Both the position numbers and the translations under genes were made by a program. From Ferrimonas futtsuensis DSM 18154 (GTDB lineage: Bacteria; Pseudomonadota; Gammaproteobacteria; Enterobacterales; Shewanellaceae), in the NCBI RefSeq assembly GCF_000422645.1, contig NZ_AUGL01000001.1, forward strand, positions 248,001 to 312,000: a stretch of DNA of 64,000 bases. Reading direction: 5' to 3'. The notes under the pieces were generated by a model. It worked only from the letters and a program-made list of their open reading frames with translations, ran no database searches and was not told where the DNA came from. Positions 10,138 through 27,406 of the stretch are shown here, piece by piece (position 1 is the stretch's first letter; each line of letters begins with the position of its first letter).

Positions 10138-10360
10138 CCTGTTAGTCCTTTGTCGTTATCTATCTCCCTAACCCGCCTAGCTTACTGCAAAAGACGGCAA
10201 ATTAAACGATTGTTTGACTGAAAAACCGCCAACAGCAAATCCTACCAGTTGATGAAAAACGAGCCAGATTCGAGAAAAACAGTTCCAACTGAACACCGAA
10301 GTGTGATCAATCCACGTTGTTGAATAAGGGGAGCTTGGATTACACTTACAAAAAATTGTG

Positions 10361-10446
10361 ACCGAGCCTGGACGACCTAAGTGACCATATGGTTCCCAGG
10401 CCGTGGCAAATCTGCCACCAGGGTAGCTGCGAGAAATCGAGCTACC
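10361..10446 (+). ncRNA. Probable Moco (molybdenum cofactor) riboswitch in the moaA leader
   Basis: The 332-base gap between ETF-QO and moaA holds a structured leader. GCCTGG (10366–10371) pairs with CCAGGC (10396–10401). GTGGCA/TGCCAC forms a hairpin at 10403–10418. GGTAGCT-CGA-GAAA-TCG-AGCTACC forms a long hairpin capped by a GNRA tetraloop at 10422–10446. It ends 23 bases before the moaA ATG. The Moco RNA motif is known upstream of moaA in gammaproteobacteria and includes a GNRA-tetraloop helix, so position and structure fit. Assignment is from memory of the motif, not a covariance-model search. The first half of the gap (10138–10330) is AT-richer and probably holds the promoter; I see no definite element in it. 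Confidence 0.72.
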
Positions 10447-10469
10447 TCCCGTGTTTGGAAAGGTGACAC

Positions 10470-11450
10470 ATGACACAGCTAAACGACCGCTTTGGGCGGG
10501 AATTTCACTATCTTCGTCTGTCCATTACCGACGCTTGCAACTTCAAGTGTCAGTACTGCCTGCCTGACGGCTACCGTCCCGACGGAAAACCCCGCTTCCT
10601 GACCCTGGATGAGATCCGCCGGGTTGTGACCGCCTTTGCCCAGGTGGGCACCCGCAAGATCCGCATCACCGGTGGCGAGCCCACCATGCGTAAGGACTTC
10701 AACGACGTCATCGAACTGGCGGCCAATACCCCCGGGGTCAATACCGTGGCCACCACCACCAACGGCTACCGCCTTGCCGCCAATGCCCAGCGCTGGTTCG
10801 ATCTCGGTCTGAGCCAGATCAACGTGTCCCTGGACAGCATGGACGAGGGCCTGTTCCGGCAAATCACCGGCGACGGCCGCCAACAGCTGGTGCTCGATGG
10901 CATCGAAGCCGCCCTTGAGACCGGTTATCGGCGGGTGAAGATCAACGTGGTTCTGCTCAAGGACCTCAACGCTCAGCAACTGCCCCAGTTCCTCGAATAT
11001 ATCCGTCACCGCCGGGTGGACATCCGCTTTATCGAACTGATGGAAACCGGGCTGGGACAGGATTACTTCCAGAAACACCATATCTCCGGCCAGGTGATCA
11101 AACAGCAACTGCTGTCCCAGGGGTGGACCGAAGATCCCCGCGGCCCGGACGACGGCCCGGCGCTCAACTTCAGTCACCCGGATTTCGCCGGACGTATCGG
11201 CCTGATCATGCCCTACGCCAAGGATTTCTGTGCCACCTGCAACCGACTGCGGGTCTCCTCCATCGGCAAACTGCACCTGTGTCTTTTCACCGAGTGCGGC
11301 ATCGAACTGAGGGATCTCCTGGGCCACGACGATCACCAGCCCGAACTCATTGCCCGCCTCCATGAGCAACTCAGGCTCAAGGGGGCAACCCATCAACTGC
11401 ACGAAGGCCTGACCGGGGTAACCCAGCACCTGGCCTCCATTGGCGGTTGA
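10470..11450 (+). CDS. moaA: GTP 3',8-cyclase MoaA
   Basis: Radical SAM enzyme of 326 residues that starts molybdenum-cofactor synthesis by converting GTP to the 3',8-cyclised precursor with MoaC. The N-terminal cluster motif is C23-X3-C27-X2-C30, followed by GGEPTMR for SAM. The second, substrate-binding 4Fe-4S cluster is C254-X2-C257-X13-C271. The C-terminus ends Gly-Gly, as needed for MoaA activity. The ribosome site GGAAAGG lies just upstream. It is the first gene of moaABCDE–modABC, all tightly spaced on the plus strand. Confidence 0.97.
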   Translation: MTQLNDRFGREFHYLRLSITDACNFKCQYCLPDGYRPDGKPRFLTLDEIRRVVTAFAQVGTRKIRITGGEPTMRKDFNDVIELAANTPGVNTVATTTNGYRLAANAQRWFDLGLSQINVSLDSMDEGLFRQITGDGRQQLVLDGIEAALETGYRRVKINVVLLKDLNAQQLPQFLEYIRHRRVDIRFIELMETGLGQDYFQKHHISGQVIKQQLLSQGWTEDPRGPDDGPALNFSHPDFAGRIGLIMPYAKDFCATCNRLRVSSIGKLHLCLFTECGIELRDLLGHDDHQPELIARLHEQLRLKGATHQLHEGLTGVTQHLASIGG

Positions 11451-20090: not shown

Positions 20091-20734
20091 TGACACCGCG
20101 GCATTTCACTGAATCACTGAAGCAGCTGGGCCTGGACTGGCTCACCACCCATCAGAGCGATGCCGCTCATGATCTGGACCATATCCTCCGGGTCTACACC
20201 ACGGCCGGACGCCTGGGCCAGCAGGAGGGCGCCAATCCGGACATCCTGCTGCCGGCGGCCCTGCTGCACGATTGCGTCAGTATCGACAAGCGCGATCCCC
20301 GTCGCAGCCAGGCTTCGACCCTGAGCGCCGATGCGGCGGTCGCCTGGCTGGCACAGCACGACTACCCCGCCGAGTTGCTGGACGCCATCCACCATGCCAT
20401 CGCCAGCCACAGCTGGAGTGCCGGGCTAGAGACCAACACCCTGGAAGCCCGGGTACTGCAGGATGCGGATCGCCTGGATGCCCTGGGCGCCATCGGCACC
20501 GCCCGCTGTCTGATGCTGGGTGGCCAGTGGCAGAGTACCCTGTATCACGGCGGCGATCCCTTCGCCGACGCCAGAGAGTATGACGACAAAACCTACTGCC
20601 TGGACCACTTCTACGTTAAGCTTCAGCACCTGGCTGGCCAGCTGAAAACCGATGCGGGACGCCAAGAAGGCGAACGTCGCTGGCGCTGGATGGAAGGTTT
20701 TATCCAACAACTGCAATCTGAATTACCTGAGTGA
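20090..20734 (+). CDS. HD-domain phosphohydrolase (YedJ-like)
   Basis: 214 residues. The HD metal site is complete: HDLDHILRVY gives the first histidines (27 and 31), LLHD the H60–D61 doublet, and DADRLDALGAIG the distal Asp. This resembles YedJ/YpgQ-type nucleotide pyrophosphohydrolases, but the substrate is unknown. Its start overlaps the yhhQ stop, and the GNAT gene follows 8 bases after its end. Confidence 0.83.
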   Translation: MTPRHFTESLKQLGLDWLTTHQSDAAHDLDHILRVYTTAGRLGQQEGANPDILLPAALLHDCVSIDKRDPRRSQASTLSADAAVAWLAQHDYPAELLDAIHHAIASHSWSAGLETNTLEARVLQDADRLDALGAIGTARCLMLGGQWQSTLYHGGDPFADAREYDDKTYCLDHFYVKLQHLAGQLKTDAGRQEGERRWRWMEGFIQQLQSELPE

Positions 20735-20742
20735 GAGACCCT

Positions 20743-21174
20743 ATGAACTGGCGTGAAGGCACAATTGATGAAGTGATGGCTCTGGTGGAGCAGGTCCCCG
20801 AGCTGGATACTCCCTACCCCAGAGAGGAGTACGATCAGCGTCTGGGCGAGGTTCCCCACCTCATTCAGATCGCCGAGGTGGAAGGCCAGGCCGCTGGCTT
20901 CAAGGTGGGCTATGCCCTGGATGAGCAGCAGTTCTACTCCTGGCTGGGCGCGGTGCTTCCCCAATTCCGGGGACAGGGTGTGGCCAAAACTCTGCTGCGG
21001 GCACAGGAAAGCTGGGCAAAGGAACAGGGTTATAAACTGATCACGGTGAAGAGTCGCAACCGCTACCCAGAGATGCTGCGGATGCTGCTGGGCAAGGGCT
21101 ATCACCTGGTGGATATGCAGAAAGCCAGCAACACCCCCCTGGACTACCGCATCCTGCTGGAAAAAAGTTTATAA
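20743..21174 (+). CDS. GNAT-family N-acetyltransferase
   Basis: 143 residues from ATG 20743; a GTG at 20731 is an in-frame alternative. The acetyl-CoA loop is VLPQFRGQGVAKTLLRAQESWA (Q/RxxGxG/A pattern, about residues 70–91), followed by the usual SRNRYPEMLRMLLGKGY. Substrate unknown. It is the third gene of yhhQ–HD–GNAT, with no terminator before the small RNA that follows. Confidence 0.82.
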   Translation: MNWREGTIDEVMALVEQVPELDTPYPREEYDQRLGEVPHLIQIAEVEGQAAGFKVGYALDEQQFYSWLGAVLPQFRGQGVAKTLLRAQESWAKEQGYKLITVKSRNRYPEMLRMLLGKGYHLVDMQKASNTPLDYRILLEKSL

Positions 21175-21190: not shown

Positions 21191-21220
21191 TTGCAATGCA
21201 AATGAGAATAGTTGTTATTT
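21191..21220 (+). promoter_or_regulatory. Fur-box-like site overlapping a promoter
   Basis: GCAAATGAGAATAGTTGTT (21198–21216) matches the 19-bp Fur consensus at about 12 positions by eye. It overlaps a possible promoter, TTGCAA (21191–21196) with a −10 in GTTATTT (21214–21220). Iron-replete Fur would be expected to block the RNA that starts just downstream. Confidence 0.6.
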
Positions 21221-21225
21221 AACTG

Positions 21226-21325
21226 CGTTCCAACTTTAGCCCCCTGATAGTTAAGGTGGTTGTTTTAGCTCACAGCATTGCTCACACGGTTTTAGGCCGG
21301 CAACTCAGTTGCCGGCCCATTTTTT
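21226..21325 (+). ncRNA. ryhB: RyhB-like iron-responsive small RNA
   Basis: A short transcript of about 100 bases is predicted between the Fur-box promoter and a strong terminator. Its centre holds GCATTGCTCACAC (21275–21287), which shares ATTGCTCACA with the conserved seed of enterobacterial RyhB. The end is a 9-bp stem GGCCGGCAA/TTGCCGGCC (21295–21317) followed by a T tract (21320–21325), as in Hfq-bound RNAs. RyhB represses iron-using proteins when Fur is inactive. No protein frame explains the region. The precise 5' end is inferred from the promoter and could be off by several bases. Confidence 0.75.
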
Positions 21326-21343
21326 ATGTGGGCCCACATTGGC

Positions 21344-22000
21344 CTAATCACAGAGCGCTATCACCTGAGAAACCAGGGCTCGTATCCCCGCCGCGGCCTC
21401 AGGCAGGCTTTTGGCCAGCATGTAAGCCGGTGTGGTCACCACCTTGTGGCGCTCATCCACATGGATCTCCTCCACCGCACACTCCCTGTGCTCACCGCCC
21501 ATGGCGTTGAACGCGACCGCGGTCTCATGGTCGTTCCCTATGGTGCCCTGCACCCCCTCGCCATAGATGCGGGGCAACATCATCGGCGCAATGCAAAGAT
21601 AACCACAGGGCTTACCCGCCTGGGCAAACGCCAGGGCCACCGCCATCACATCATCACTGACCTGACACTCACTGCCTGACAGGGCAAAATCACACAGATT
21701 CTTGGCGGCACCGAAGCCTCCAGGCACCACCAGGGCATCGTAATCCGCTGCATGGAGATCGCTGAGGGGCAACACCTCCCCCCGGGCAATGCGGGCGGCC
21801 TCAACCAGGCAGTTGCGACTCTCCTGTTCTGCCACCTCGCCGGTGAGGTGGTTCACCACATGCAGTTGAGGCCTGTCGGGAGCAAAGCACTGATAAGACG
21901 CTCCCTTCTCCTGAATGGCCAGCAAGGCCAGGACAGATTCGTGTATCTCCGAGCCATCAAACACACCAGAGCCACTGAGCAGTACCGCAATCCTCTTCAT
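21344..22000 (-). CDS. elbB: ElbB, glyoxalase/DJ-1-PfpI-like protein
   Basis: 218 residues of the DJ-1/PfpI superfamily, matching ElbB (isoprenoid biosynthesis protein with amidotransferase-like domain). Features are VLLSGSGVFDGSEIHES at the N-terminus, VVPGGFGAAKNL, and the nucleophile-elbow Cys136 in GYLCIAP. E. coli ElbB shows glyoxalase activity in vitro; its physiological role is unclear. It converges on the RyhB-like RNA, with 18 bases between its stop and the end of that RNA. Confidence 0.9.
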   Translation of the reverse strand: MKRIAVLLSGSGVFDGSEIHESVLALLAIQEKGASYQCFAPDRPQLHVVNHLTGEVAEQESRNCLVEAARIARGEVLPLSDLHAADYDALVVPGGFGAAKNLCDFALSGSECQVSDDVMAVALAFAQAGKPCGYLCIAPMMLPRIYGEGVQGTIGNDHETAVAFNAMGGEHRECAVEEIHVDERHKVVTTPAYMLAKSLPEAAAGIRALVSQVIALCD

Positions 22001-26733: not shown

Positions 26734-26776
26734 GGACAGGGAAAGAACGAGCCACGCAAATAAAAGTTGGAACACC

Positions 26777-27406
26777 ATGAAAAAATTAGCACTAACACTT
26801 TCTGTGCTCGCCGCTTTCAGCGGTACTGTTCAGGCCCAGGGAGATGAAGCCAAAGGGCAGCAAGTTGCCACCACCACCTGTCTTGCCTGCCACGGCATGG
26901 ACGGGAACAGCATGGTCCCCATGTACCCCAAACTGGCTGGCCAGCATCAGGGCTACCTGCTCAAGCAGTTGAAAGAATTCAAGCAGGGTGCCATGAGCGG
27001 CGGCAAAGAGGGCCGAAACGATCCCATTATGGCCGGAATGGTCATGACCCTGAATGACGAGCAGATGGCGGATGTCTCCGCTTTCTATGCCTCCCAGGCG
27101 ATCTCCGCCGGCACTCAGGTGGACGCAGATACCCAGGCCAAAGGCGAAAAGCTGTATATGGGGGGTGACGCACAGCGTCAGATTACCGCCTGTGCGGCCT
27201 GCCACGGTCCCAATGGGGAAGGGATGAACCTGGCCGGTTACCCCAGCCTGGCGGGTCAACACCCGGACTACATCAAGGCCCAACTGGAGAAGTTCCGCAG
27301 CGGTGCCCGTGCCAACGATCTCAACGGCATGATGACCGGCGTAGCCAAGAACCTGCGTGACGAGGACATCAGCCTGCTGAGCCAGTACATCTCCAGCCTG
27401 AAATAG
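26777..27406 (+). CDS. Di-haem cytochrome c4
   Basis: 209-residue periplasmic protein with a signal peptide (residues 1–20, ending VQA) and two tandem class I c-type domains, each with one CXXCH: C35-C38-H39 and C139-C142-H143. Conserved methionines in each half are the likely axial ligands. Cytochrome c4 passes electrons from bc1 or other donors to terminal oxidases. It stands alone between engB (divergent) and csrB, with its own leader and terminator. Confidence 0.93.
   Translation: MKKLALTLSVLAAFSGTVQAQGDEAKGQQVATTTCLACHGMDGNSMVPMYPKLAGQHQGYLLKQLKEFKQGAMSGGKEGRNDPIMAGMVMTLNDEQMADVSAFYASQAISAGTQVDADTQAKGEKLYMGGDAQRQITACAACHGPNGEGMNLAGYPSLAGQHPDYIKAQLEKFRSGARANDLNGMMTGVAKNLRDEDISLLSQYISSLK

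Follow-up and report, generated by a model that had tools for sequence, protein, structure and literature searches.

Does the short gap between a GNAT acetyltransferase gene and a convergent elbB-like gene in Ferrimonas futtsuensis DSM 18154 encode a RyhB, and if so, is it the same RyhB that is found in Shewanella? The window analysed here is the whole 64,000-nt stretch of DNA, taken from a genome of 4.3 Mb, and the 14 Ferrimonas genomes compared are this one (G000) and 13 congeners. An earlier note on the window had placed a Fur-like box, a promoter, a transcript unit bearing the RyhB seed and a terminator together between the two genes, and all of these can be read at 21191-21326 (Table 1). 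The name elbB is that of the note; the gene product scores 21.1 bits against Pfam DJ-1_PfpI, under the cut-off of 26.6. Our comparisons uphold the RyhB-like reading and take it further: on the evidence of family models, including one that contains no Ferrimonas sequence, and of a shared upstream neighbour, the RNA is very probably an orthologue of Shewanella RyhB, and as such a predicted iron-responsive small RNA that acts in trans.

Table 1. Features of the ryhB locus and of the proposed cytochrome c4 target (positions in the window)
Feature	Position	Strand	Basis or remark
GNAT acetyltransferase gene	20731..21174	+	PF00583; upstream neighbour
-35-like TTGCAA	21191-21196	+	read from sequence
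-10-like TGTTAT	21213-21218	+	16-nt spacer after TTGCAA
Sigma-70-like promoter	21191..21218	+	kept in the family alignment with flanks
Putative Fur-box-like 19-mer	21198..21216	+	12/19 against the Fur consensus, best 19-mer there
Predicted RyhB small RNA, ~101 nt	21225..21325	+	homology
5' nonamer GCGUUCCAA, proposed second seed	21225..21233	+	complementary to cytochrome c4 leader
First GCUCACA seed copy	21268..21274	+	alignment of Ferrimonas copies
RyhB core AUUGCUCACA	21277..21286	+	contains second seed copy 21280-21286
Intrinsic terminator, 10-pair stem and U-tract	21295..21325	+	stem 21295-21317, T-run 21320-21325
elbB-like gene (DJ-1/PfpI)	21344..22000	-	convergent downstream neighbour
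Proposed RyhB target site AAAGUUGGAAC, c4 leader	26763..26773	+	11 contiguous pairs with RyhB 5' end
Diheme cytochrome c gene (c4-like), proposed target	26777..27406	+	PF00034, two CXXCH motifs

Taken singly, the parts are weak, since the Fur match is 12/19, the promoter is absent from the list returned by a strict sigma-70 scan of the window, and the seed is 10 nt long. The window holds 42 19-mers with at least 12/19 Fur matches, both strands counted, and we therefore rejected the count of Fur boxes as stand-alone evidence; searching the window with a symmetric 19-mer Fur pattern, as many as three mismatches being tolerated, found no match. The seed sequence ATTGCTCACA at 21277-21286 is the sole exact copy in the window, and one mismatch raises this to three matches, against 3.97 expected by chance; CAUUGCUCACA, complementary to RyhB targets, is present at 21276-21286. 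What lifts these parts above chance is that 12 of the 14 Ferrimonas genomes, and across the family 61 loci with 66 copies, have them together in the same order. In a 30-sequence alignment, four of the seven consensus pairs of the terminator are changed at both positions in one sequence or more.

To find the 61 loci, the genome collection was searched with a pattern in which GCGTTCCAA precedes CATTGCTCACA, and 75 loci came back. Those in Shewanella, Ferrimonas, Parashewanella or Paraferrimonas, one locus labelled Marinobacter being counted with them, make up the 61, and all 66 of their copies have a T-run and match the Fur consensus at 12 to 16 of 19 positions. The 14 loci outside the family have Fur scores of at most 10/19 and a single T-run within 90 nt (at 69 nt), and were dropped as chance matches. 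Because the scan required both motifs, we built models. Model R1 (30 sequences, all from the family and the window sequence among them, promoter included) matches 150 of 152 family genomes at E <=0.01, S. oneidensis RyhB included; some of these matches, weak ones such as those in G015, G018 and G019, may reflect no more than a Fur box. A genome of the same family (G107, genus g2) holds twelve R1 matches, an unusual number of ryhB-like loci. All 14 Ferrimonas genomes have an R1 match at E <=1, yet we put the number with true ryhB copies at 12, because the best matches in G001 (E 0.139) and G009 (E 0.647) show no RyhB, the GNAT-elbB gap of these two genomes contains neither the nonamer nor GCTCACA, and a search of both loci with a second model, R3, gave nothing at E <=10.

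Model R3 was built from the transcript only, with 20 sequences and Ferrimonas excluded. Its single match at E <=10 in 458,764 bases of the window genome is the RNA itself (21225-21322, 33.2 bits, E 0.0017), a result not wholly independent of the nonamer and the core since the Shewanella rows of the model were picked by a pattern with both motifs. The best R3 matches in the other 11 ryhB-bearing Ferrimonas genomes range from E 3.1e-6 to 0.64, with six at <=0.01; the weakest five are short forms (G010, G006, G004, G013 and G007; E 0.05 to 0.64). The core, by whose conservation in relatives the earlier note had been ready to be judged, is kept as CATTGCTCAC in 11 of the 12 ryhB-bearing Ferrimonas genomes. 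The exception is G002, both copies of which keep the first GCUCACA alone; among the 11, G010 has another base just after CATTGCTCAC.

The reference for these comparisons is the RyhB of S. oneidensis, a transcript demonstrated by RACE whose level goes up 20-fold when fur is mutated (PMC2964681). All three published primers for this gene map to G116 C1:4920174-4920345, inside the published coordinates, and on that basis we treat G116 as S. oneidensis MR-1. This RNA, encoded between SO_4716 and SO_4717, shares with the Ferrimonas RNA the 5' nonamer, the core, the terminator, the promoter with its putative Fur box and the GNAT gene upstream, and R3 gives it 109.1 bits. The Ferrimonas RNA differs in its length (101 as against 127 nt), in its middle, in the duplication of GCUCACA, in having elbB and polA downstream, and in the context of the core, which is AGCAUUGCUCACACGG and not GCACGACAUUGCUCACACAC. 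Its predicted 5' end at about 21225 was placed to correspond to the one implied by the estimated size, 127 nt, of the S. oneidensis RNA.

Could the resemblance have arisen twice? An unrelated Fur-controlled small RNA with an independently acquired RyhB seed would fit the poor alignment of the middle of the RNA with Shewanella RyhB, and would also fit the Rfam scores, which bear out the earlier note's warning that homology searches may miss this RNA: 15.8 bits for RyhB against a cut-off of 55, and 34 for PrrF against 90. A sub-threshold RyhB score nevertheless says little on function, because the verified S. oneidensis RyhB has no Rfam RyhB or PrrF match at E <=1 either, and its discoverers likewise report that the Rfam model failed to find it (PMC2964681); the miss is thus a limit of the models. 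Given that GNAT neighbour, 5' nonamer, core, terminator and promoter layout are all common to the Shewanella RNA, and that a model without Ferrimonas RNAs matches the Ferrimonas one, we regard an independent origin as very unlikely. Still more improbable, to the point of being negligible, is a short protein-coding or dual-function transcript, for which a GTG-started frame of 84 codons from 21256 might be invoked: the frame crosses the terminator and runs to 21510, antisense to elbB, and the stretch between the conserved blocks varies in length across species. Orthology with Shewanella RyhB is the reading that we follow below.

The earlier note also held that the place of the gene was unfamiliar for RyhB, which has to be corrected as to the upstream side, as the GNAT neighbour is common to many Shewanella ryhB loci. 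This GNAT gene lies on the same strand within 1.2 kb upstream of ryhB at 40 of the 61 loci (7/7 in Ferrimonas, 33/54 elsewhere); it was not found at 19, and two more have too little DNA. The GNAT gene upstream of S. oneidensis ryhB has 40% identity. An elbB gene downstream of ryhB is seen, among the loci examined, in Ferrimonas only. Both genomes without ryhB, G001 and G009, keep the order HD, GNAT, elbB, polA with no ryhB between GNAT and elbB. A record labelled Marinobacter nauticus (NZ_JAHVJZ010000005.1) has the Ferrimonas order HD-GNAT-ryhB-elbB-polA, with 81% identity in the N-terminal part of PolA and 68% in ElbB, and is probably a mislabelled genome.

Among other known RNAs of this type, enterobacterial RyhB (Rfam RF00057), which is under Fur control (PMC2964681), has the CAUUGCUCACA core and a terminator in common with the Ferrimonas RNA, which nonetheless stays below the gathering score. 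Pseudomonas PrrF (RF00444) aligns over the promoter with its Fur box and over the terminator, again below the gathering score. The window genome has one copy; Ferrimonas G002 and G008 have tandem copies, an arrangement that is mentioned in PMC2964681 for P. aeruginosa. The best Rfam RyhB score in the window genome falls elsewhere, at C1:185222-185286 (20.2 bits, E 0.57), and this candidate for a second RyhB was rejected, the RyhB core being absent; a third match lies at C10:19277-19327 (15.4 bits). The only above-threshold Rfam match in the window is a molybdenum/tungsten cofactor riboswitch (RF01055) at 10348-10481, with 82.2 bits. In another family of the order, G036:C1 carries two tandem RyhB-like copies upstream of polA, which score 36.1 and 32.6 bits against the threshold of 55.

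How might such an RNA work in Ferrimonas? With iron sufficient, Fur would occupy the box over the promoter and keep ryhB off; we infer this repression from that box and from the orthologous gene of S. oneidensis. When iron runs short, an RNA of about 100 nt would be made and, probably with Hfq, would pair with the start regions of mRNAs for iron proteins, blocking translation and leading to mRNA decay. The parts predicted to pair are the core, the duplicate GCUCACA 12 nt upstream of it and, by our proposal, the 5' nonamer, whose partner would be the start region of the c4 mRNA. What the comparisons show is conservation, orthology, synteny, a duplicated seed and complementarity; that the Ferrimonas RNA is expressed, is controlled by Fur, depends on Hfq and acts on any of the targets is predicted.

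The duplicated seed is itself a feature of the genus. GCUCACA is repeated in 10 of the 14 Ferrimonas copies, as against exactly one occurrence in all 58 of the pattern-chosen copies from elsewhere. Four copies have it three times (G003, G004, G007 and G013), six have it twice (the window, G011, G005, both copies of G008, and G006) and four once (G012, both copies of G002, and G010). An extra GCTCACA arose on shuffling the flanks (20,000 trials) in 0.3% of cases for the window, 0.7% for G004 and 0.8% for G006. In the folds predicted for G004 and G013, a GGTGAG/CTCACC hairpin displays one seed copy in its loop, and another copy sits at the tip of the terminator hairpin. We found no description of seed repetition in Ferrimonas in the literature searched. 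The gene itself is also duplicated in places, in tandem in G002 and G008, and in G005 the intact gene has beside it a second, decayed ryhB (G005:C29:143696-143787), in which the Fur box, the 5' end and the core are all altered.

The earlier note had suggested target prediction against sdh, fdh, cytochrome and Fe-S genes. In the prediction run here, the c4 cytochrome start is best for the 5' block of the RNA; sdhC comes top for the seed block yet is not claimed, and sodB pairs no better than shuffles in the window species. The window RyhB was scored as a duplex against the starts of 383 predicted genes, drawn from the window and from 20 further stretches of the same genome; these stretches are not random, several having been placed to take in sdhC, sodB or other matches. 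Scores were computed over 22-nt windows with no accessibility term and with gene starts taken from the longest frame, and three blocks of the RNA were tried.

Both seed copies find a partner in the sdhC start, at -26.8 kcal/mol. This start ranks 1/383 with the seed block as query (runner-up -23.2) and likewise with nt 1-69, falling to 8/383 when the terminator is free to pair; the pattern GTGAGCAN{0,4}CTGTGA occurs at two places in the window genome, ryhB itself and sdhC. We do not claim sdhC as a target, because its GTGAGCA is kept where there is no ryhB (14/14 Ferrimonas, including the two genomes without it, and 8/8 other family genomes read), because this motif belongs to an inverted repeat around the start, and because the crude duplex score in S. 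oneidensis is -20.6 even though sdhA of that species is reported not to respond to RyhB (PMC2964681). The repeat, TGCTCA..TGAGCA, is conserved in Ferrimonas with or without ryhB and partly in the eight other family genomes read. Of the 12 ryhB-bearing genomes, 11 have the CTGTGA extension at sdhC, and neither of the two that lack ryhB has it; this association may be a lineage effect, since G010 has ryhB and a short sdhC leader like that of the two genomes that lack it. At sodB, GAGCAAUG in the start region faces the core at about -20 kcal/mol in G003, G004, G007, G013 and G006, where 3 to 6 of 60 shuffles score as well in a test that favours the real leaders, as shuffles were placed on a coarser grid (step 6) than they were (step 4). 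In the window species 22/60 shuffles are as good, and sodB was rejected there; the range across the window species, G011, G012, G005, G008 and G010 is 22 to 58 of 60, with 14/60 in G002.

The 5' nonamer is present in all 14 intact Ferrimonas copies, absent from the decayed G005 copy, and present in 8 of 9 further ryhB copies read, at least three of which (G106, G087 and G027) lie on contigs of the pattern-chosen set. Against a place for the nonamer in the RNA, the 5' end of S. oneidensis RyhB found by RACE is 15 nt downstream of the first base of the nonamer (PMC2964681), though a later size estimate based on a mapped start site is about 127 nt (PMC5826389). Counted from GCG through the last T of the T-run, this RNA likewise has 127 nt, which suits the nonamer as its very 5' end. 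With RyhB nt 1-14 as query, the start of the c4 gene, 5.5 kb from ryhB in the window, ranks 1/383 at -15.8 kcal/mol (mean -7.7, sd 2.2; runners-up -14.2 and -14.1); the best 15 of the 383 starts for the whole RNA and the best 8 for nt 1-69 do not include it.

The best S. oneidensis match of the c4 protein is G116 C1:4863329-4863949 (57%, other matches in that genome being weaker), and the two genes share a divergent neighbour (64%), which we take to be engB. From family and best-match status we infer that this counterpart is SO_4666, the diheme cytochrome c4 CytcB. SO_4666 is one of ten cytochromes affected by RyhB and belongs to group IIa, group II comprising genes that are probably under some other iron-dependent control as well (PMC5826389). 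Its values are -1.30, +0.91, -0.39 and -1.36, which as we read the text of PMC5826389 refer to the fur mutant, the effect of ryhB deletion therein, the remainder and RyhB overproduction; it is listed there as RyhB-repressed and drops on overproduction. The same paper predicts RyhB pairing for cctA and scyA, and in the text consulted there is no mention of pairing between the RyhB 5' end and SO_4666. Nor did we find the complementarity of nonamer and c4 leader described in the literature searched.

The complementary leader is widespread. TTGGAAC stands just 5' of the start in 25 of 26 c4 leaders read; the full TTGGAACGC is found in 11 of 12 hand-picked non-Ferrimonas genomes and in none of the 14 Ferrimonas, and the c4 leader of the 12 Ferrimonas with ryhB keeps 7 to 11 contiguous pairs with its own RyhB. 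Of 148 family genomes, 137 contain the pattern GTTGGAACN{1,5}ATGAAAAA, as against three with the reversed pattern; two of the 137 (G024 and G082) match outside the c4 gene, and c4 was checked at the protein level for 26 leaders and 11 genes only. The misses are of several kinds: one or two bases differ or there is an insertion (G020, G027, G106, G133 and G021), the leader reads TTGGAATGTC (G015), the c4 match is at 45-49% and such a leader is absent (G104, G174, G069 and G087), or there is no c4 match in a genome that is 62% complete (G019).

We tentatively suggest, giving it somewhat less than an even chance, that RyhB is two-headed in Shewanella and Ferrimonas, with a 5' seed GCGUUCCAA directed at the c4 start region and a core seed that in Ferrimonas is multiplied to two or three copies, which in some species are displayed in predicted hairpin loops, one of these at the terminator tip. 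The 5' part of this has a competitor, to which we give slightly less than an even chance: the nonamer may owe its conservation to a role in the promoter, in the initial transcribed sequence or in RNA folding, and its complementarity to the c4 leader may be non-regulatory. Shewanella G174, G087, G082, G069 and G104 have c4 matches of 45-49% and lack such a leader, and in the four of them in which ryhB was read (G174, G069, G087 and G082), with no close c4 gene, GCGTTCCAA is kept all the same; Ferrimonas G001 and G009 have no ryhB and still have the leader AAGTTGGAACG, and the outgroup G036, whose RyhB has a different 5' end, has a similar c4 leader, AAGTGGAATGCT, which scores -13.5 kcal/mol against the window 5' block, close to within-family values. 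A role in folding would agree with the predicted pairing of the first five bases of the nonamer with an internal AACGC in G004, and a non-regulatory match with the close runners-up for the 5' block and the absence of c4 from the top starts listed for the longer queries. Against this stand the 11 contiguous pairs in the window with their first rank, the excess of the leader motif before ATGAAAAA over its reversed form, and the fall of SO_4666 on RyhB overproduction (PMC5826389).

These results add RyhB to the genus Ferrimonas, for which we found no paper on RyhB or on small RNAs in the open-licence literature. They also indicate that the Rfam models miss a group of orthologues, one that the family model R1 matches in 150 of 152 genomes. 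The part most worth following is the proposed second seed together with the multiplied core seed: a second seed would offer a testable explanation for the strongly conserved 5' end of Shewanella RyhB.
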